Shown here: piece after piece, positions 5,114-54,520 of the stretch
How the letters are laid out: each line of letters starts with the position of its first letter
How positions within the stretch are numbered: position 1 is the stretch's first letter
Assembly (NCBI GenBank): GCA_903844645.1
Contig: CAIMUP010000118.1
Span: 1 to 64,000 of the forward strand
Origin: an uncultured Bacteroidota bacterium
Lineage (GTDB): Bacteria; Bacteroidota; Bacteroidia; AKYH767-A; JABDAW01
DNA length: 64,000 nucleotides
Reading direction: 5' to 3'
The notes under the pieces: model-generated
The model's input: the letters and a program-made list of their open reading frames with translations, nothing else
Told to the model about the DNA's origin: nothing
Database searches by the model: none
Translations under genes and position numbers: made by a program

Positions 5114-5281
5114 GATGCCAACTCAACCAGTTAAGATGATAACTTAACCGTCGAAGATGCCAACTTCTACCACAAAGAGCACAACTTCTACTACAATGAT
5201 CACAACTTCTACTACAAAGATGACGACTTCGACTACAAAGATGCCAACTTCTACTACAAAGATGGCGACGCTTAACAGTGA
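5114..5281. repeat. 21-bp tandem array B
   Basis: Eight units of exactly 21 bp, each starting GATG or a variant (GATC, GAGC), with the best-conserved part AACTTCTACTACAAA. The first two units (AACTCAACCAGTTAA and AACTTAACCG) have diverged but keep the phase. No ORF of interest. It fills most of the gap between a terminator and the next promoter. Confidence 0.93.
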
Positions 5282-5640: not shown

Positions 5641-8600
5641 ATGAACGTCAAATTGATTACACAAAACACACAAACAGCAATTTTTAAAAAGAGCGGTATT
5701 TTGGTTTGCATATTAATGGCATTCCTATTCTGCACCAACACTTTCGCGGCTACCATTACCTGGAAAGCTAATTCAAACAGTAATTGGAACAGCCCCTCGA
5801 ACTGGCAAGGAGGACCTGTTCCGACCTTTGGCGACATCGCAGTTTTTGATGCGACCTCGGCATTTAATTGTAACATTGATGCAAATGTAAATGTGGCAGG
5901 AATTCAGATTAATGCAGGTTACACAGGTACCATTACGCAGAATGGTTATACCATTACTTGTGGTGCATCCGGCTTTACGCAATCTACCGGAACATTTACC
6001 GGAGGCACTGCTGCAATTACCGGAAACGGAGCATTTAATTTGAGTGGTGGTATTTTTACCTCTACTTCAGGAGTATTTACACAGACTTCCACTTTCACTA
6101 ATTCTGGTGGAACTTTTAATCACAATAACGGTAGTGTTGTGTTCTCTGGTGGTTTAACAATAACCGGTTCGACTACGTTTTATGATTTATCATTTACAGG
6201 AAGTGGGGTTACCTATACTATCGGAAGTTCAACCACTCTAACTGCGAATAATACCTTTAACACTACAGGTGCGAGCTATGCTACTTTGAGCGGTGGAACA
6301 ATTGATGTAAAAGGAAATATTAACGTGAATAATACTTATGCTGCAAATAATAACCATTCGACTTCAGTAACAATTACTGGGACGGGTTCGCAGACATTTA
6401 CAGGAGCAATTACAGCCTATCAAGGTAGATTCCCATCAGTAACCATTAATAAGGCATCGGGAACTTTGTACCTGAAGAATAATATCACCTTTGAAGGGAA
6501 TTTTACTTACACAACTGGTACTATAGATTATACTACTAACACAAACCGATTGATTTTTATTTCTAATGGAAAGACAATAACGGTTAATGCAGTGCTTACT
6601 GTAGGTGATGTCGAATTTTACGGAACAGGAAGTAATTATACACTTACAACACCTTCAAACTTCAATGTTACAGGGACACTATACATTAGCGGATCAAGTT
6701 ATGGTACGATGCTGTCAGGGACGATTTATGCTCAAGGAAATATTACGGTTACGAATAGTTATACCGCTAATATGGGGCATACTGCAATAATAACTATCAA
6801 TGGAAGTGGAAACCAAAATCTTTCAGGAACTATTACCGCTATGCAAGGAAGACTTCCAAGTCTTGTTATTGCTAAGGGAGGTGGAACGCTTTATTTATTG
6901 AACTACATTACTACTGAAGGGCATTACAGCTATTTTATGGGTACGGTTGATTATACGACAAATGCAAACCGGGTAATCTTTATTTCTAATGGAAAGACTA
7001 TTTTGACAAATACTGCACATACGTTGGGAGATGTTGAATTTGTTGGAACAGGAAGTTCATATACACTAACAACTACCGGAGCATTCAATATTGCGGGAAC
7101 ACTTTATATAAGCGGAACCAGCTACGGCACTATGTACACCGGTACAATTAATGCAAAAGGAAATATTACGGTTACAAATAGCTATACTGCCAATATGGGG
7201 CATACAGCAATAATTAACATCACTGGAACAGCAAATCAGAACTTTACAGGACCGACCACATCTTTACAAGGGAGACTTGCGAGCATAATTATCAATAAGG
7301 CCTCAGGAACTCTTTATTTATTAAACTATATCACAACCGAAGGGAACTGGACTTATACCACAGGAACAATTGATTACACTACAAATGCAAACCGTGTAAT
7401 TTTTATATCGAATGGAAAGACAATTACCACAAATGCTGTTCACACATTAGGCGATGTCGAATTCGTTGGGACAGGGAGTTCATTCACTTTTACTACTCCT
7501 TCTGCTTTCAATATTGCAGGAACCCTTTATTTCAGTGGAACGAGTTATGGAACGATGTTGAGCGGTACAATTAATCCACAAGGGAACATTAATGTTAGCA
7601 ATAGTTATACTGCTAATATGGGTCATACTGCAACATGGAATATTAACGGGACAAGTAATCAGAACTTTACTGGTACAACTACGATTTATCAGGGAAGAGT
7701 TCCAAGTATTATTATTAACAAAGCAAGTGGAACGCTTTACTTAATCAATTATATTACCGATGAAGGAAACTGGACTTACACAACAGGAACTGTTGATTAT
7801 ACAACAAGTGCAAACCGTGTTATCTTCATCTCTAATGGTAAAACAATAACTACAAATGCTGTTCACACATTAGGGGATGTTGAATTCAATGGAACAGGAA
7901 GTAATACTACTTGGACTACTCCATCTGCTTTCAATATAACAGGTACGATGTTTATTACTGGAAATAGTTACGGCACATTCCTCGGAGGAACAGTCAATTC
8001 ACAAGGTAATATTGCAGTTACTAATAGCTATACCGCTAATATGGGTCATACGGCAACGATTAATATTAATGGAACATCTAACCAGAACTTTACCGGAACC
8101 ACTACGATTTATCAAGGCAGAGTTCCAAGTATAGTTATTAATAAAGCAAGTGGAACTCTTTACTTAATCAATTATATCACAGATGAAGGTAACTGGACAT
8201 ACGCTACAGGAACTGTCAACTATACGAATAATGCAAACCGTATAATCTTTATCTCTAATGGCAAAACAATAACCACTAATGCTGTTCACACATTGGGAGA
8301 CGTTGAATTTTATGGAACGGGAAGCAATACTACATGGACTACCAATTCAACCTTTAACATTGCCGGTACTATGTACATTACTGGGAATAGTTACGGAACA
8401 TTTCTTGGAGGATCAGTGAATTCTCAAGGGAATATAACCGTTACGAATAGTTATACAGCTAATATGAATCATACAGCTACTATTAGCATTAATGGAACAG
8501 CGAACCAAAACTTCACCGGAACAACGACGATTTATCAAGGAAGACTCCCAAGTATCATTATTAATAAAGCAAGCGGAACTCTTTACTTAATCAATTATAT

Positions 8601-10776
8601 TACCGATGAATGTAACTGGACTTACACTACAGGAACTGTTGATTATACAACAAATGCCAACCGTGTTATATTCATCGGTAATGGTAAGACTATTACTACT
8701 AACGCAGTGCATACGTTGGGTGATGTTGAATTCTATGGAACGGGAAGCAATACTAAATGGACTACGAGCTTTACCTTTAATATTGCCGGTACTATGTACA
8801 TTACTGGAAATAGCTACGGAACATTCCTTGGAGGTACAGTAAATTCTCAAGGGAACATAACGGTTACTAATAGCTATACATCGAATATGAATCATACCGC
8901 TACCATTAATATCAATGGAACAGCGAACCAGAACTTTACCGGAACAACCACGATATATCAAGGAAGGCTTCCTAATATAATTATCAATAAAGCGAGTGGA
9001 ACACTTTATTTAATCAATTATATCACTGCTGAATGCAACTGGACTTACACTACAGGAACGGTTGATTACACTTCAAGTGCAAACCGTGTGATCTTTATCG
9101 CCAATGGTAAAACCATTACTAAGAATGCCAATCACACAATTGGCGATGCCGAATTCTATGGTACAGGAAGCAATACGACGTTCACGACTCCTTCTGCATT
9201 CAATGTTGCGGGTACGATGTATATCACTGGAAACAGCTACGGAACGATGTTGACCGGAACGGTAAATGCGCAAGGTAATATCACCGTTTCAAATTCTTAT
9301 ACCGCAAATAACAATCACACTGCAACGATTAATATTAATGGTTCAGCGAATCAATTATTCACAGGGCAGGGAACGGCAGGAACAGGAAGATTACCTAATA
9401 TTACCATCAACAAAACAGGCGGAACATTAACATTGGCTGCCCCAATAATTACTGCTGAAGGGAACTGGTCTTATACCGCAGGAACGATGGATGTCGCTAC
9501 CGATACCTCTTCTGTTGCATTCTACAACTCTGGCAAATACATCAGCGGAGCACTTTATACCGCTACCTTGATGGACAATAATCGCAGAACCCTAAACGGC
9601 GCAATGAGCATCAGCAATGTCCTCGCATTAGGAACAGGTAATTTAGACTTAAATCAAAACACGCTTTCCATCTTAAACTCTGCTGCCGGTGCAATCACCT
9701 ATTCAACAGGATATATCAAGAGCGAGCAGACAGATAATTCAAGTAAAATAGCTTGGACAATCGGCTCAAATACCGGAAGCCACGTTTATCCTTTCGGTAC
9801 CAATGGCGGTTCTTTAATTCCATTTACATTCACTGTAACCGCTGGAGATGTCGGCGCGTTTTCGGTCGCAACATACTCTACCAACAGCACTTGCAAGCCC
9901 TATCCCGTTACCCCTGATTCAGTTTTGCATGTCCGCAACGTGGCTGGCTTTGACAATAGCTCAAACACCGTAAAAAGATTCTGGCAATTAACCAAGGGCG
10001 GCGTATCTGGCACTGCCAATATGACCTTCACCGCTGCCGCCGCAGAGGTAGGAACCATTACTTCGCTAAGAGCACAACGATACAATAAAATTAACAACGG
10101 ATGGGATCAACCAATCGGAGGACAAAGCAACCCAACGGCATACAGCGCAACGGTTTCCGGTGTCAGCACCTTCTCTCCTTGGACGATGTCTGGCAATGGC
10201 GTTCCGCTCCCGATACAATTGGTGGACTTCACCGGGAATTATGTAAAAGAAACTAAGTCAGTTCATACCCAATGGACCACCGCGAGTGAGGTAAACAGCA
10301 ATTACTTCACCATCCAAAGATCAGCTAACGGCGTGGATTTCGATTCCATAGGAGCTGTCCAAGGAGCAGGCAACAGTAATGCTTTATTGAACTACAGTTT
10401 CGACGATATGAACCCGTTGCAAGGCATCTCTTATTATCGTTTATCACAGACCGATTTCGATGGCAAGGTAGCTACCTTCAACATGATATTAATTGATGTT
10501 AATACTGATGAAAATACCACAGTGAATATCTTCCCGAACCCAGGTAACGGCACAGAAGTGAATGTGGTCTATACCGATGAAGCAGAGGGCGATAATATCA
10601 CCTTTACCATCGCCGATATTGCTGGCAAAACCATCGCGCAAACAACAATAGTGAATGAAGCAAAAGGCATGAATATTTATAAATTCACGCCTCCTTCGAC
10701 ACTCCCATCCGGCATTTATTTTATGACCGCTGTGATTAATAATAAATCCTTCTCCAAAAAGATAATCGTACAATAA
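5641..10776 (+). CDS. Repetitive T9SS-sorted surface protein, 7 x 141-residue repeats
   Basis: 1711-residue secreted protein. Signal peptide at residues 1-37 (hydrophobic ILVCILMAFLFC, then TFAA). A W-K-x-x-S-N-S-N-W...S-N-W motif is followed by seven repeats of exactly 141 residues (423 bp) and a partial eighth. The anchor T-L-G-D-V-E-F recurs at 6601, 7024, 7447, 7870, 8293, 8716 and 9139. Each repeat carries GNITVTNSYTAN, the NINGTANQNFTG type, GRLPSIIINKASGTLYL and RVIFISNGKTITTNA. Copies differ mainly at silent positions with no indels. The C-terminus is a T9SS sorting domain (IFPNPGNGTEVNV, LPSGIYFMTAV, KKIIVQ). A start at 5599 is also possible; 5641 gives the better signal peptide. Probably a beta-solenoid filament or adhesin. 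Confidence 0.87.
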   Translation: MNVKLITQNTQTAIFKKSGILVCILMAFLFCTNTFAATITWKANSNSNWNSPSNWQGGPVPTFGDIAVFDATSAFNCNIDANVNVAGIQINAGYTGTITQNGYTITCGASGFTQSTGTFTGGTAAITGNGAFNLSGGIFTSTSGVFTQTSTFTNSGGTFNHNNGSVVFSGGLTITGSTTFYDLSFTGSGVTYTIGSSTTLTANNTFNTTGASYATLSGGTIDVKGNINVNNTYAANNNHSTSVTITGTGSQTFTGAITAYQGRFPSVTINKASGTLYLKNNITFEGNFTYTTGTIDYTTNTNRLIFISNGKTITVNAVLTVGDVEFYGTGSNYTLTTPSNFNVTGTLYISGSSYGTMLSGTIYAQGNITVTNSYTANMGHTAIITINGSGNQNLSGTITAMQGRLPSLVIAKGGGTLYLLNYITTEGHYSYFMGTVDYTTNANRVIFISNGKTILTNTAHTLGDVEFVGTGSSYTLTTTGAFNIAGTLYISGTSYGTMYTGTINAKGNITVTNSYTANMGHTAIINITGTANQNFTGPTTSLQGRLASIIINKASGTLYLLNYITTEGNWTYTTGTIDYTTNANRVIFISNGKTITTNAVHTLGDVEFVGTGSSFTFTTPSAFNIAGTLYFSGTSYGTMLSGTINPQGNINVSNSYTANMGHTATWNINGTSNQNFTGTTTIYQGRVPSIIINKASGTLYLINYITDEGNWTYTTGTVDYTTSANRVIFISNGKTITTNAVHTLGDVEFNGTGSNTTWTTPSAFNITGTMFITGNSYGTFLGGTVNSQGNIAVTNSYTANMGHTATININGTSNQNFTGTTTIYQGRVPSIVINKASGTLYLINYITDEGNWTYATGTVNYTNNANRIIFISNGKTITTNAVHTLGDVEFYGTGSNTTWTTNSTFNIAGTMYITGNSYGTFLGGSVNSQGNITVTNSYTANMNHTATISINGTANQNFTGTTTIYQGRLPSIIINKASGTLYLINYITDECNWTYTTGTVDYTTNANRVIFIGNGKTITTNAVHTLGDVEFYGTGSNTKWTTSFTFNIAGTMYITGNSYGTFLGGTVNSQGNITVTNSYTSNMNHTATININGTANQNFTGTTTIYQGRLPNIIINKASGTLYLINYITAECNWTYTTGTVDYTSSANRVIFIANGKTITKNANHTIGDAEFYGTGSNTTFTTPSAFNVAGTMYITGNSYGTMLTGTVNAQGNITVSNSYTANNNHTATININGSANQLFTGQGTAGTGRLPNITINKTGGTLTLAAPIITAEGNWSYTAGTMDVATDTSSVAFYNSGKYISGALYTATLMDNNRRTLNGAMSISNVLALGTGNLDLNQNTLSILNSAAGAITYSTGYIKSEQTDNSSKIAWTIGSNTGSHVYPFGTNGGSLIPFTFTVTAGDVGAFSVATYSTNSTCKPYPVTPDSVLHVRNVAGFDNSSNTVKRFWQLTKGGVSGTANMTFTAAAAEVGTITSLRAQRYNKINNGWDQPIGGQSNPTAYSATVSGVSTFSPWTMSGNGVPLPIQLVDFTGNYVKETKSVHTQWTTASEVNSNYFTIQRSANGVDFDSIGAVQGAGNSNALLNYSFDDMNPLQGISYYRLSQTDFDGKVATFNMILIDVNTDENTTVNIFPNPGNGTEVNVVYTDEAEGDNITFTIADIAGKTIAQTTIVNEAKGMNIYKFTPPSTLPSGIYFMTAVINNKSFSKKIIVQ

Positions 10777-10929: not shown

Positions 10930-11080
10930 AAACCGATACGTTTTTTGGGAAAGGCATTCCGCTTTTCTGAAGAGGCGTTCCGCTTTTTTAATAAAGCATT
11001 CCGCTTTTCCAAAAAGGCATTCCGTTTTTTGAAAAACTCACTACGTTTTTTTAGAAAACTCACTACGTTTTTGGTATAAA
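10930..11080. repeat. 21-bp tandem array C (CG + T-tract)
   Basis: Seven units marked by a C-G step followed by a T tract. The CG falls at 10939, 10960, 10981, 11002, 11023, 11044 and 11066, so spacing is 21 bp five times and 22 once. Units read GCATTCCGCTTTT early and CACTACGTTTTTT late, drifting along the array. The rest of the 510-bp gap holds only a terminator and the secA promoter region. Confidence 0.88.
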
Positions 11081-11287
11081 CAAAACAGTTAGGTAAAGAT
11101 GTTATTCGCTATATTTATCATGTAATTAACCATTATTAAGCTAGTTATAAGTTAATAAAACACCCCTTTTTTGGGCTTCGAAAGAAATTAGGGGAGAGGC
11201 AGGGGCGGAGCATCTTATCGCATAAAAATATCCCGAAAAATAATTCCCTGTTGATTGCTATTTTCGCACCCTAAAGCAAAAAGAATT

Positions 11288-14712: not shown

Positions 14713-14751
14713 AATGAAAAGGGTGATTTAGAGACAAAAGATAATATTTTC

Positions 14752-14961
14752 GGGACAGCTATCTTTCACTATGGGAGAGCTATCTATTCATTCGGGATGC
14801 CTATCTATTGCTACGGGATGCCTATCTATTGCTACGGGATGCCTATCTATTCATTCGGGATACCTATCTATTGCTACGGGATACCTATCTATTGCTACGG
14901 GATGCCTATCTATTCATTCGGGATACCTATGTATTCATCCGGGACACATGTCCTGTGCGAA
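14752..14961. repeat. 21-bp tandem array D (GGGATnCCTATCTATT)
   Basis: Ten consecutive units of exactly 21 bp, each starting GGGA and carrying CTATCTATT. Unit ends are of two main kinds, GCTAC and CATTC, in an irregular order. The last unit has diverged (GGGACACATGTCC). Three short open frames across it are products of the 7-codon period. Confidence 0.95.
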
Positions 14962-20829: not shown

Positions 20830-21060
20830 CTCCAGATGCGTCTATGGAAGGCATTCCTTCCTTCCGACAGCTTCCGTACACGTGTATGGGAGCTGTCGGA
20901 TGCTCCCAATGCCTTCCAAACACGTGTATGGAAGGTATTCCTTCCTCCCGATGCCTTCCGGAGGCGTCTATGGAAGCTATCCGATCCTCCAGATGCCTTC
21001 CATAGACGTCTATGGAAGCTATCCGATCCTCCAGATGCCTTCCATAGACGTCTATGGAGC
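20830..21060. repeat. 42-bp (2 x 21) tandem array F (GACGTC palindromes)
   Basis: Six copies with an exact 42-bp period; the marker TATGG starts at 20843, 20885, 20927, 20969, 21011 and 21053. The mature unit centres on the perfect 22-bp palindrome CTTCCATAGAC|GTCTATGGAAG (clearest at 20997-21018), so each 42 bp holds two 21-bp half-units in opposite orientation. Early copies have CACGTGTATGG in place of GACGTCTATGG. Downstream to 21285 there is only the next promoter. Confidence 0.93.
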
Positions 21061-26354: not shown

Positions 26355-26530
26355 CATGTAAAACCTATCAGAAATCCAAATTTCCGATAGGTCTTGGATT
26401 CAAGACCTATGTGAAATCCAAATTTCTGATAGGTTTTCGATCCAAGACCTATGTGAAATCCAAATTTCTGATAGGTTTTGAATCCAAGACCTATCGGAAA
26501 TTTGGATTTCTGATAGGTTTTGGATCCCCA
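26355..26530. repeat. 42-bp (2 x 21) tandem array G
   Basis: Four copies with an exact 42-bp period; the marker ACCTAT starts at 26363, 26405, 26447 and 26489. Each copy is a 21-bp unit (GACCTATGTGAAATCC) followed by its inverted counterpart (AAATTTCTGATAGGT), giving hairpins around CCTATCAGAAAT/AAATTTCTGATAGG. A 113-residue open frame over the array has a 14-residue repeat only because of the period. The rest of 26146-26628 shows nothing else. Confidence 0.92.
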
Positions 26531-33055: not shown

Positions 33056-33290
33056 TCAGGATTCATTCCCATTGCCGGATTGCACCAAAGTATTGCTGGA
33101 TTGCACCAAATTATTGCGAGCAATGGCGGAATTATTGCGAGCAATGGCGGAATTATTGCGGGCAATGGCGGAATTATTGCGGGCAATGACGAAGTTTTTG
33201 CGGGCAATGACGAAGTTATTGCTGGATTGCACCAAATTATTGCCGGCAATAATTTGGTGCAATCCAGCAAAATATTGGTGCAATCCAGCA
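33056..33290. repeat. 21-bp tandem array H with flanking inverted units
   Basis: The middle has direct 21-bp units (CAATGG/CAATGA marker at 33121, 33142, 33163, 33184 and 33205). On both sides lie units GGATTGCACCAAA (33077, 33098, 33224) and their reverse complement TTTGGTGCAATCC (33256 and 33277 marker). The right part forms a perfect 52-bp palindrome at 33219-33270 centred on GCC|GGC. All markers stay in 21-bp phase. Confidence 0.94.
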
Positions 33291-36629: not shown

Positions 36630-36661
36630 ACCGCGAAAAATTAGTTATTATCCTCAAAAAA

Positions 36662-37084
36662 ATGATTCTTATCCAAAACAAACCAAGTATTTTCCTGATG
36701 GGCGATGCCATTAGTTATGCCAAATTCCAAAACCTCCGCATTCCTTATAGTAATAGGGGCAGACAGTTGTTTATTTTCGCCAGCAAGGTGGACCATTACG
36801 AGGCATACGGCAATAATACCTTCGCGTTTATGGAAAATAATGGCGGTAAAATCTTGCTCGACACCACCATTTCCGCCACTGCGCTTTGGTTGCCGGGCAA
36901 TCATTGCGATAGATTCCATAGATTCACGATAGGTAACCTGAATCACCTCGCGGAATTCCATGATGGTAAGAAACCTTATTATAATACCTCCGATCATTAC
37001 CGGATGTATATCAGTAGAAATGAGAAAGGGCGTATAAAGGACGTGATTCGCCGTTATTCTCCGATGAAAGGCGTGAGGAAATAA
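36662..37084 (+). CDS. Hypothetical cytoplasmic protein
   Basis: 140 residues, basic, no signal peptide (MILIQNKPSIFLMGDAISYA). Features: KFQNLRIPYSNRGRQLFIFA, ATALWLPGNHCDRFHRF, HYRMYISRNEKGRIKDVIRR. I do not recognise a family. The start follows the -7 box at 36622-36629. The next 580 bp hold array I. Confidence 0.62.
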   Translation: MILIQNKPSIFLMGDAISYAKFQNLRIPYSNRGRQLFIFASKVDHYEAYGNNTFAFMENNGGKILLDTTISATALWLPGNHCDRFHRFTIGNLNHLAEFHDGKKPYYNTSDHYRMYISRNEKGRIKDVIRRYSPMKGVRK

Positions 37085-37261
37085 GTCAACATTTTCCGAA
37101 ATCCCCGTTATAACCTTACCATTCGACAGATTTTTCTTGGTCATCATTCCGTCATTCGCGACTATTGCGGCGCGATTCGCGGAAAGCATCGCATTAGTCA
37201 TAGAGAATAAAAGAAACATCATGGAGAGTACCACAAGCATCGGGAACATTGGGATAAGAGC

Positions 37262-37520
37262 CACGGGGAATGGGATTTTATCCTTGGCTAATTCCATTTT
37301 ATCCTTGGCTAAAACCCAAATAGCCGTGGCTATTTCCATTTTAGCCGTGACTAATTCCAAAATAGCCGTGGCTAATTCCATTTTAGCCATGACTAATTCC
37401 AAAATAGCTGTGGCTAATTCCATTTTATCCTTGACTAATTCCAAAATAGCCTCCGCTAAAACCAAAATAGCCTCGGCTATTTCCATTTTATCCTCCGCTA
37501 TTTCCATTTTCTTCGGGAAA
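37262..37520. repeat. 21-bp tandem array I (ATTCCATTTTA / ATTCCAAAATA)
   Basis: About twelve units in exact 21-bp phase, from CCTTGG at 37282 to CCTCCG at 37492. Two unit types mix: CCATTTTA and CCAAAATA. They differ by exchanging T4 for A4, i.e. a reverse-complemented core, between constant GCCGTGGCTA arms (TAGCC and GGCTA are complementary). A 320-residue leftward frame and a 164-residue rightward frame across it are period artefacts. Confidence 0.94.
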
Positions 37521-37664
37521 AACAGCCCAGTTTTTGAAAACATAAGGGGAGAATCGGGGAGGAATTTCTTAAAAGCCTCGGCTGAAATGGTGTTTATCCC
37601 CAAGATTTTTTATCTGATAACAACGAATTAAACAATAATAGTAACTAATTTAATAATAATCACA

Positions 37665-43204: not shown

Positions 43205-43418
43205 TCGGGAGTACGCCCAATACTCCCATATATACGCGGCGTACTCCCATATATACACGGCGTACTCCCATATATACACGGCGTACTCCCATATATACAC
43301 GGCGTACTCCCATATATACACGGCGTACTCCCATATATACACGGCGTACTCCCGTATATACGCGGCGTACTCCCGTATATACGCGGCGTATATATGGGAG
43401 TATTGGGCGTACTCCCGA
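43205..43418. repeat. 21-bp tandem array J with 33-bp perfect terminal inverted repeats
   Basis: Eight marker positions of CGGCGTA in exact 21-bp phase, with GG at 43238, 43259, 43280, 43301, 43322, 43343, 43364 and 43385. The internal palindrome is TATATA. Unit types CCCATATATACA and CCCGTATATACG are grouped, the second near the right end. The array is bounded by perfect inverted repeats at 43205-43237 and 43386-43418 (core CCCAATACTCCCATATATAC). It starts 14 bp after the upstream stop codon. Confidence 0.96.
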
Positions 43419-44946: not shown

Positions 44947-46323
44947 ATGGACATCTTTAGAGAAATTTTAGAACTTGAAGGGCGACTTTGTTTTCCAATG
45001 CCTCATTTCAAAATCTTCATAACCGGAGTTTCGATTGACACCAGAACAATCAAAGAAGGCAATCTTTACTTTGCTATCAAAGGAGAGAACTTTGATGGGC
45101 ATGATTTTGTTTGGGAGGCTTATGAAAAGGGAGCTTCTATTTGTTTTGTCAATGAAGATTGGCATGAAAAGAACAATGAGAATCTCAAACATTATTTTTC
45201 AAAATGTGTTAAGGATACGACTGTAGCTTTGGCAAATTTATCTAAGGATTATCGCAAGAAATTCGGCATCCCTTTCATTGCTGTGGGCGGTAGTAATGGC
45301 AAGACGACCACCAAAGAAATGATTGCCGCCGTCCTATCCCCAAAGTATAAAGTCCTAAAGACGGAGGGCAATTTGAACAACCATATCGGAGTTCCCTTAA
45401 CATTATTTCGGCTGGACGATACGTTCCAAATTGCCGTCATAGAAATCGGGACGAATCACTTCCATGAATTGACTTATTTGTGTTCAATTCTGGAGCCGGA
45501 TTATGGCATGCTGACCAATATTGGCAGGGAACATCTGGAGTTCTTTAAGGATATTAACGGCGTGGCTGAAGCGGAGGGAGAACTGATACATTATTTGATA
45601 AAAAACCATAAAAAAGGCATCCTAAATACAGACGATAAACATATTTTCCATAGCGCAAAAGGGCTGCGCCACAGGCTTTCCTACGGTTTCCATGGAAACG
45701 TCGCCGTAAAGGGTGAGTTCCTAGGATTAGACAGGCTCGCGATGCCAACTTTCAGTGTAACTTTTAAAAAAAATACCACAAAAATCAAACTAAAAGTACC
45801 TGGCGAACACTCCATCCATAATGCCCTTGCCGCCGCGGCTATAGGCTTCGAATTTGGGGTATCTGCAAAGCAAATAAAGATAGCCCTGGAGAGCTTTTTG
45901 TCATACAATAAACGAATGGAGGTACTGAAAACAAATGGAATCACCATCATTAACGATTGTTACAATGCCAATCCGGATTCGATGATAGCCGCCATCAAAA
46001 CATTGGAACACATAAAAACAAAAGGCAATAGGATTGCCGTCCTGGGAGATATGGCGGAGCTCGGAAACACCAGTAAAATCGGGCATCAGGAGGTAGGAAA
46101 AATAATTTCAGTATCCAATATCAACTACTTCCTATCTATCGGGAAGGATATGAAACACGCCCACGAAATTGCGGATACCATAATGGAAAATGCCATACAT
46201 TTCGAGAGCAATAAGGTACTGATAGAATTCCTTCGCTTTGCTGCGGAGGCGGGCGACATACTCCTTATCAAAGGATCCCGTTCCATGCGGATGGAAGAGA
46301 TTGTCGCAGCCATGAATTCGTAA
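44947..46323 (+). CDS. murF: UDP-MurNAc-tripeptide--D-Ala-D-Ala ligase MurF
   Basis: Adds D-Ala-D-Ala to UDP-MurNAc-tripeptide, the last cytoplasmic step of peptidoglycan precursor synthesis. 458 residues. The uridine-binding N-terminal domain has GVSIDTRTIKEGNLYFAIKG, followed by the P-loop AVGGSNGKTTTKEM (about residues 112-125), LNNHIGVPLTL, VIEIGTNHFHEL, PGEHSIHNALAAAAIG and CYNANPDSMIAAIKTL. It lies 6 bp after rmuC and is likely cotranscribed. murQ at 22135 is the recycling counterpart. Confidence 0.95.
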   Translation: MDIFREILELEGRLCFPMPHFKIFITGVSIDTRTIKEGNLYFAIKGENFDGHDFVWEAYEKGASICFVNEDWHEKNNENLKHYFSKCVKDTTVALANLSKDYRKKFGIPFIAVGGSNGKTTTKEMIAAVLSPKYKVLKTEGNLNNHIGVPLTLFRLDDTFQIAVIEIGTNHFHELTYLCSILEPDYGMLTNIGREHLEFFKDINGVAEAEGELIHYLIKNHKKGILNTDDKHIFHSAKGLRHRLSYGFHGNVAVKGEFLGLDRLAMPTFSVTFKKNTTKIKLKVPGEHSIHNALAAAAIGFEFGVSAKQIKIALESFLSYNKRMEVLKTNGITIINDCYNANPDSMIAAIKTLEHIKTKGNRIAVLGDMAELGNTSKIGHQEVGKIISVSNINYFLSIGKDMKHAHEIADTIMENAIHFESNKVLIEFLRFAAEAGDILLIKGSRSMRMEEIVAAMNS

Positions 46324-46551
46324 TCCGCCATCGAAATAATCCTCCCAAAAATCGCCTTTCAGGTATCTCCTTTTTTCTATTTGATAGCAAAAAAATCGCG
46401 CTCATGCCCATTCCCATCCGACAGGTTATGATTCAGAAAAGAGCCATACCTTTGCAAGCAAACGGGGTTACCATTTTGGTTAATTCTATACCCTTTTTGA
46501 ACGATTTCCATGTCGCCAAACTTTTTTTGAAAGGGGTAGGATGTAAGTAGA

Positions 46552-46973
46552 TACTGCTCCGCCGAGTTTTCATACTGTTTTAATAAAAATTACTACCTCC
46601 CGTAAGCAAATTCCTACCTAACGCAAGAAAATACTTACCAGCCGAAACGGGATTTTTACCAAAAACGAACAAAAACATATGTTTTTGTTCGTTTTTGGTA
46701 AAAATCCTAAGTTTTTAGATAGGTGTCCCGATTGTTCGCATAGGAAAACCCGAAAATTTGGTAAGCGCAATTCTTTTTTAGATAAGATTATAACGGGGAA
46801 TGGTATCAGGAAATCCGAAAATCCTATCAGAACTTTTCAAAAACATATGTTTTTGAAATTTTTTGGTAAGAATACACTTTTTTTAGGTGCGAATTCCTAC
46901 AGAATCAGTACCAACGAAGTGATGGCGAGTACCTTTTTTCTTAAAAAAGCTATCAAACACTGCCGCATCCATA
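46552..46973. repeat. Degenerate 21-bp phased array K with 58-bp perfect palindrome
   Basis: From 46552 to 46972 a TA step recurs every 21 bp without slip (46552, 46573, 46594 ... 46972; the one at 46888 reads TG), although the sequence between is largely diverged. Left of 46678 the step reads TACC or TACT; right of it GGTA, then TACC/TATC again, i.e. a degenerate GGTACC core. Units meet head to head in a perfect 58-bp palindrome at 46650-46707 centred on CAT|ATG, and in a 24-bp palindrome at 46835-46858. Nothing else is seen in 46324-47104. Confidence 0.9.
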
Positions 46974-46984
46974 CCGATATTTTT

Positions 46985-46994
46985 GGGGGGGGGG
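46985..46994. repeat. Poly-G tract (10 G)
   Basis: Ten consecutive G preceded by T's, at the end of array K and about 110 bp upstream of a promoter. Such tracts change length easily by slippage. Confidence 0.8.
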
Positions 46995-47104
46995 GAATTG
47001 AATTCCCGCGAATCCTTACCAATCGCCCCGAAATAGATACCAGACATCAAAATTCTGATTACTCATCCCCAAATAATAATACTATAAGTTACCGAAATTA
47101 TTAG

Positions 47105-47112
47105 TAACTTTG
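47105..47112 (+). promoter_or_regulatory. -7 box (TAACTTTG)
   Basis: TAnnTTTG 32 bp upstream of the start at 47145. Confidence 0.6.
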
Positions 47113-47144
47113 CGCAGACAATAATAACAATAAATTTTTAGATA

Positions 47145-47624
47145 ATGAAAAGAATAACAATAGTAGCAGTAACGTTTTTTTTGATACTGAATGGCGTCAA
47201 AGCCCAACAAACAGACCAAGGATTGATGACAAACATTGATAAACAGAGACAAGAAATTAAATCGAAGATGAGTACCTATCGCCGCGTGGTACGGTTCCGC
47301 GATAGTTTAAGTACAAAGTATTATTTTTACCAAGGAAAGGAGCTGCAAATGGTAACAATTTGGGTAAAGGCAGGTACGGTAGATAAAAATATAGAATGGT
47401 ATTTCGCGGCAGGCAAGATGATTTATTCCGAAAACAATTGGAAAGACCGCGTAACAGGTAAGGTTACGGAAAATCAGCATTATTATCTTAAAAATGAGGA
47501 AGTATTTGTCTGGATAAAGACAGACGGAAGCCGCGGAGATGCTACCTCCAAAGAATTTTTGGAAGCAAAAGAAGGATTATCCAAGCTTGCCGGCAAAATG
47601 CGGGAAGACGCGACGCATTTTTAG
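47145..47624 (+). CDS. Small secreted hypothetical protein
   Basis: 159 residues with a signal peptide (ITIVAVTFFLILNGVKAQ). The mature part is basic with segments IDKQRQEIKSKMSTYRRVV, DKNIEWYFAAGKMIYSENNW and NEEVFVWIKTDGS; it could be a small periplasmic sensor or lipid/peptide-binding protein. No family recognised. It has its own promoter and a convergent terminator shared with tRNA-Ala. Confidence 0.68.
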   Translation: MKRITIVAVTFFLILNGVKAQQTDQGLMTNIDKQRQEIKSKMSTYRRVVRFRDSLSTKYYFYQGKELQMVTIWVKAGTVDKNIEWYFAAGKMIYSENNWKDRVTGKVTENQHYYLKNEEVFVWIKTDGSRGDATSKEFLEAKEGLSKLAGKMREDATHF

Positions 47625-49150: not shown

Positions 49151-49270
49151 CCCCTCATCCAAAACACGGATGACCTCAACCCAATCACGGATGACCTCAT
49201 CCAAAACATGGATGACCTCAAACCAATCACGGATGACCTCAAACTTGTCGCGGATGACCTCATCCGTGAT
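49151..49270. repeat. 21-bp tandem array L (GGATGACCTC)
   Basis: Five units in exact 21-bp phase (GGATGACCTC at 49168, 49189, 49210, 49231 and 49252). The last runs into an inverted half unit, giving the near-palindrome CGGATGACCTCATCCG. It sits between the divergent promoters of glyA and rocD. Confidence 0.94.
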
Positions 49271-54294: not shown

Positions 54295-54520
54295 TAACAA
54301 TATTCTTCGACCCCGTTGATATATTCTTCGACCCCGTTAAGATGTTGTTCGACCCCGTTGATATGTTGTTTGACCCCGTTAAGATGTTGTCCGACCCCGT
54401 TGATATGTTGTTTGACCCCGTTAAGATGTTGTCCGACCCCGTTGATATGTTGTTTGACCCCGTTGATATGTTGTCCGACAACACAGATATGTTGAGGGGG
54501 AACATATCTCTGTTGTCTCT
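54295..54520. repeat. 21-bp tandem array M (ACCCCGTTGATATG)
   Basis: Eight units in exact 21-bp phase (CCCCGTT at 54311, 54332, 54353, 54374, 54395, 54416, 54437 and 54458). Types TTGATATG and TTAAGATG alternate almost strictly. The right edge is a hairpin at about 54476-54516 (GACAACACAGATATGTT against AACATATCTCTGTTGTC, one mismatch). The left edge adjoins the terminator. Confidence 0.95.

Follow-up and report, generated by a model that had tools for sequence, protein, structure and literature searches.

The perfect 58-bp palindrome at 46650-46707 of the window (the whole 64-kb stretch of DNA that was analysed) is the point at which a worn array of 21-bp repeats reverses direction. We consider it probable that the palindrome is a head-to-head junction in a decayed intergenic minisatellite of 21-bp unit, made by fold-back copying. 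The original prediction overlooked that it is one event within a genome-wide system of 21-bp arrays.

The palindrome consists of GGATTTTTACCAAAAACGAACAAAAACAT followed directly by ATGTTTTTGTTCGTTTTTGGTAAAAATCC, that is, two 29-bp arms that are 100% complementary with a spacer of 0, exactly as had been claimed. From the local base composition, some 4×10−12 such palindromes are expected by chance per 64 kb. A second palindrome of 24 bp, at 46835-46858, is also perfect and has the same centre, AAAAACATATGTTTTT, in agreement with the earlier reading; it lies inside a 50-bp inverted repeat, and the two dyads are spaced by exactly 168 bp, or 8×21. With up to 2 mismatches allowed, the 16-mer AAAAACATATGTTTTT has 2 sites in the 64 kb, which are those of the two palindromes, and strong matches of the 58-bp palindrome in the genome were likewise restricted to itself and its decayed sister. 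No Rfam family was found in the gap. An exact 23-mer covering the left arm and the centre found no match in viral contigs, and a viral origin was rejected on this ground.

Both palindromes are located between a gene whose stop is near 46323 and the next gene, at 47145. The upstream gene (44947-46323) matches Pfam Mur_ligase_M and Mur_ligase_C and is a MurF-type Mur ligase, so the gap was correctly placed downstream of murF. Because an 838-aa ORF on contig C10 also carries MurF similarity, we count 44947-46323 as a second, stand-alone MurF-like gene, possibly a second MurF copy. The size of this ORF is one usual for the fused racemase-MurF of Bacteroidota. The same gap contains, at 46985-46995, a run of 11 G after five T, where slippage may occur or to which the assembly may be sensitive.

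A decayed 21-bp tandem array, extending from 46586 to about 46900, holds both palindromes (Table 1). Written in 21-bp rows from left to right, the gap contains the forward units AAAATTACTACCTCCCGTAAG, CAAATTCCTACCTAACGCAAG, AAAATACTTACCAGCCGAAAC and GGGATTTTTACCAAAAACGAA. The palindromic unit CAAAAACATATGTTTTTGTTC comes next, followed by mostly reverse units (GTTTTTGGTAAAAATCCTAAG onward), the decayed palindrome, and reverse rows again. The 21-bp register is present on both sides of the 58-bp palindrome, the orientation changes at its dyad, from TACC forward units on the left to GGTA reverse units on the right, and the second dyad is 8 units off; 21-bp-type units do meet head to head, as proposed. 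To the right of the palindrome, direct repeats are spaced by 105 bp, or 5×21. Identity at lag 21 in the gap was 0.410, compared to 0.271 in shuffled sequence (z 5.5), lags 21, 42, 63 and 84 were all significant (z 5.5 to 3.1), and lags 21 and 42 stayed the top two when both palindromes were masked. A minisatellite consists of units of about 10-100 bp repeated head to tail, and such repetition is seen both in the TRF call at 46586-46639 and in this masked 21-bp periodicity. A 141-aa ORF crossing the array region matched no Pfam family, and we take it as spurious.

Table 1. Coordinates of the palindromes and of the repeat rows around them in the window.
Feature	Position	Strand	Details
Four forward 21-bp units leading into the palindrome	46586..46669	+	...TACC... 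at fixed columns; TRF 46586-46639; row display
Perfect 58-bp palindrome	46650..46707	.	dyad at 46678/46679 (CATATG)
Six 21-bp rows on the right side of the palindrome	46691..46816	-	mostly reverse-oriented (GGTA...), decayed; row display
Second, decayed palindrome	46822..46871	.	50 bp, 80% complementary; core 46835-46858 perfect
Reverse-oriented 21-bp rows past the second dyad, array end	46859..46900	-	row display
Another 21-bp array, with orientation flips	33071..33290	+	unit AATTATTGCGGGCAATGGCGG; TRF, row display
Perfect 52-bp palindrome at the flip	33219..33270	.	junction exactly at the unit boundary (GGATTGCACCAAATTATTGCC meeting GGCAATAATTTGGTGCAATCC)

If transcribed, the palindrome is predicted to fold into a strong hairpin as RNA of either strand (−41.0 kcal/mol, z −10, on the + strand; −38.7 kcal/mol, z about −11, on the − strand), and an effect on the murF transcript would be possible. 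Together with the location downstream of murF, this stability would suit a functional hairpin, either one that terminates or shields the murF transcript or one that acts as a bidirectional RNA structure. Such a role is nevertheless unlikely: about 330 bp separate the start of the palindrome from the murF stop, 0 terminator-like sites (a G+C-rich stem, then a T run) were found in 46300-47200, and the hairpin sequence is unrepeated elsewhere in the genome. Moreover, arrays are distributed over tandem, convergent and divergent gaps (40, 13 and 16 respectively), near mid-gap and unlinked to gene ends. In these counts, which use heuristic gene calls including some spurious array ORFs, 69 arrays are within gaps, and 89 gaps are longer than 250 bp. 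A terminator role of the arrays in general was rejected as well, gene ends not being preferred. Since the palindrome has no terminator signature and is single copy, and since array sequence is not kept between arrays, we do not think that it is selected. It probably has no dedicated function, the arrays being the primary feature.

The same arrangement was found in another array of the window and in one array of a congener. In the former, the flip at 33245 converts GGATTGCACCAAATTATTGCC to its own reverse complement. In the latter, a 40-bp palindrome of congener G001 (L164 4054-4093), the other units of the host array also have GATATC cores. Perfect spacerless palindromes of at least 50 bp number 2 in a 417-kb sample of the genome, chosen by known contigs and not random (46650-46707 and 33219-33270, both inside the window). 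Junctions of this kind in a second array and in a separately assembled congener bear on the concern that the palindrome is a false inverted duplication created by assembly. The assembly is indeed a draft of 143 contigs, and 5 of 8 sampled contig starts are at arrays, versus 7.6% by chance; however, the flanks differ on each side and run on into ordinary genes, and the decayed sister keeps the 21-bp register, so that we regard an artefact as very unlikely.

Perfect inverted repeats with arms of at least 12 bp reached a density of 70.9 per 100 kb within arrays, about 18 times that outside (3.8), and only 0.6 in order-mates. Part of the excess stems from units that are themselves palindromic. Dyad symmetry is also in excess in the unit consensus sequences, 42 of 142 of which agree with their reverse complement in at least 14 of the 21 positions, where shuffles give about 14 units. 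Flips are uncommon: in a strict scan, only 6 of 222 arrays contained a stretch of their own unit in inverted orientation. A preference of palindromes for array ends was rejected, the bias being not significant.

The dyad symmetry of the units, some of which have perfect 14-bp palindromes at 21-bp spacing (GGTAGAGCTCTACC, AATCAATATTGATT), could be taken to indicate operator-like sites, bound by a dimeric protein and repeated every two helical turns, which is what 21 bp amounts to. We find this improbable. Unit sequences are unrelated between arrays, with a similarity near that of shuffled units, which makes a single sequence-reading protein impossible, and no A/T phasing signal was present at 10-11 bp. 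The lack of this signal also led us to reject curved-DNA phasing, sequence-directed bending being unsupported.

In the fold-back reading that we favour, the nascent strand would, during replication or gap repair, fold back within an array at a short self-complementary core; candidate cores are CATATG at the 58-bp palindrome, GCCGGC at 33245 and GATATC in G001. The folded strand would then copy itself, and a quasi-palindromic unit would become a perfect palindrome in array register. Perfect arms of the 58-bp palindrome amid a decayed array call for either a recent flip or correction through the hairpin. The flip step itself is inferred. Elsewhere in the genus, congener G002 contains a 71-bp near-perfect hairpin with 33-bp arms and a 5-bp loop, made of ACTAAG-type repeats and lying outside any detected 21-bp array (L175 4741-4811).

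Without detectable SbcCD, such hairpins would stay uncut and the junction could persist. The original prediction had invoked the cutting of long palindromes by SbcCD, with sbcCD to be looked for in the genome. The SbcC Walker-B family PF13558 had no match above cut-off in this 98.7%-complete genome, nor, with one exception, in the other genomes searched (24 of 25 without a match), and the search worked in controls, with 12 of 14 control genomes positive, Bacteroides included. TIGR00618 gave only short N-terminal matches, which cover the ATP-binding start in large proteins (~1200 aa, the size of SMC) and fall mostly in ORFs sized like SMC and RecF, and TIGR00619 only sub-threshold metallophosphatase matches, one of them a membrane metallophosphoesterase. 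The suspicion that sbcCD might be missing is supported, and the absence of a detectable SbcC may help palindromes to persist. As an explanation of the palindrome it fares less well: 355 kb from relatives that likewise lack SbcC contained zero perfect inverted repeats with arms of at least 16 bp. Since SbcC-less relatives have no such palindromes, SbcC absence is not the cause, the array is the source, and SbcCD loss is at most permissive. In vivo palindrome work in E. coli used palindromes of 246-460 bp, far longer than 58 bp (PMC4245961), and does not extend the originally stated instability in most bacteria to this length.

The arrays are abundant in this genome (G000): in the 417-kb sample of chosen contigs, 108 arrays had a period of 21 bp or a multiple of it, that is 259 per Mb and 4.6% of bases. 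TRF rows numbered 126 at period 21, 48 at 42, 18 at 63 and 10 at 84, with few off-period rows (7 at 22 and 5 at 20), and the top period was a multiple of 21 at 112 of 133 tandem-repeat loci. Two congeners, with 174 and 151 arrays per Mb, gave 79 of 95 loci (G001) and 83 of 141 (G002); the lock is weaker in G002, which is 58% complete, and every genome compared is a draft. Outside the genus, the family-mate G003 had 18 arrays per Mb (0.11% coverage) and 3 of 18 loci on a multiple of 21, small order-mate samples had almost no arrays, and 934 kb of MurF loci from several phyla yielded 3 period-21 rows. A free variation of unit length between loci is a usual trait of minisatellites, not a strict definition; here, multiples of 21 bp dominate in G000 and G001. 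A contig from Kapaibacterium carried an unrelated repeat, about 40 copies of a 77-bp unit (L045 7-3130), which has nothing to do with the palindrome.

Sampled contig starts fell at arrays in 7 of 33 cases in G001 and 0 of 28 in G002. Contig breaks at arrays are frequent in G000 and G001, so that the arrays may be more numerous and longer than counted here. In addition, lags 42, 21 and 63 were the top three of 54 in intergenic stretches where TRF reported no array, which indicates that decayed arrays like 46586-46900 are common. Lags 7 and 14 showed no excess, and a heptamer (7-bp) origin of the period was rejected.

In the window, further arrays of 21 bp (or 42/84 bp) are found at 1-227, 5154-5264, 10950-11081, 14751-14944, 20839-21058, 26363-26527, 37275-37510, 43221-43390, 49153-49262 and 54306-54479, each with a private unit sequence. 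A gene called on the minus strand at 36643-37603 includes a 21-bp array whose translation is a heptad-like peptide repeat (E-L-A-K-A-K-M type), and some 21-bp arrays may be translated. The window also holds, at 6946-9350, 5.7 copies of a 423-bp tandem unit, 78% alike, probably encoding a repeat protein.

Pairwise similarity between units of different arrays tracked that of shuffled units, except for about two dozen pairs. An exception to the private-unit rule is provided by CTCGATAAC-like units, related versions of which are found repeatedly in G002 and are shared by G001 and G002 (L254 6410-6630 and L263 5804-6004 in G002, L264 9601-9756 and L271 3534-3742 in G001). The lack of a common motif among array units also bears on the reading of the palindrome as a mobile element of REP/BIME or MITE type. 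Like BIMEs, the repeats alternate in orientation, and the genome has homologues of Y1 (TnpA_REP-type) transposases. REP/BIME elements, however, are many dispersed copies of one palindromic sequence, and here just the palindrome and its decayed sister exist, which largely refutes a mobile element. Y1 homologues are not more frequent here than in array-free relatives, and a REP transposase was rejected as the cause since these homologues are not genus-specific. We give the mobile reading hardly any credence.

Arrays are not copied from neighbouring sequence either, as just 4 cases of sharing were found for 94 arrays. Nor do we claim that they keep conserved positions across species, because arrays are present in a large share of the longer gaps in any case; two-sided synteny is scarce despite arrays beside the same genes. 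One gap conserved on both sides has an array in G000 and G002 and is a 73-bp array-free gap in G001, and other arrays sit opposite gaps of 24 and 41 bp.

Three species of one genus thus have about 150-260 arrays per Mb, of mostly unrelated sequence, with a unit of nearly always exactly 21 bp. Satellites that arise by slippage are expected to drift in unit length while losing sequence similarity, and the length here is therefore probably set by some factor or under selection. If all arrays descend from one ancestral satellite, similarity decayed to background while the length stayed at 21, whereas indels would be expected to alter many arrays; if their origins are separate, some factor measures out 21 bp. 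Both cases imply a length constraint. We tentatively suggest, as a possibility falling short of likely, that a DNA-copying process of the genus contains a ruler of 21 bp and would make or maintain arrays from unrelated local sequence in many longer gaps, sometimes with fold-back palindromes, length and not sequence being conserved. The length could correspond to an enzyme's step, or could be selected as two helical turns that accommodate a bound protein, two testable alternatives. The palindrome alone is a by-product and the 21-bp lock is the interesting part; searches of open-access papers found no description of the lock. These genomes also offer a natural case for the formation and persistence of perfect palindromes where SbcCD is undetectable.

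Among known systems, the conversion of quasi-palindromes to perfect ones and inverted duplication by fold-back (snap-back), against which SbcCD/Mre11-Rad50 stands guard, resemble our junctions in the short self-complementary core, the head-to-head inversion and the perfect arms; in yeast, loss of the Mre11 nuclease is reported to favour inverted duplications (PMC10622511). The events described here differ in that they lie inside 21-bp arrays and in register, and relatives with undetected SbcC have no such palindromes. REP/BIME elements are likewise intergenic, alternate in orientation and form hairpins, but the loci here have no common sequence and show no evident link to a RAYT. Prokaryotic satellites and minisatellites share tandem arrays in intergenic DNA; a survey of 119 bacteria classes a species as rich above 4 satellites per Mb, by its own satellite definition, and describes no 21-bp lock in the text consulted (PMC6749651). 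By analogy, the nearest parallel is the tandem repeats of Borgs, which also form many arrays with mostly private units, both intergenic and in ORFs, and are absent from relatives (PMC9879509). Borgs are extrachromosomal elements, and their unit lengths vary, 14-38% of intergenic units being divisible by three (PMC9879509), whereas the arrays described here are on bacterial genome contigs and are locked at 21 bp.
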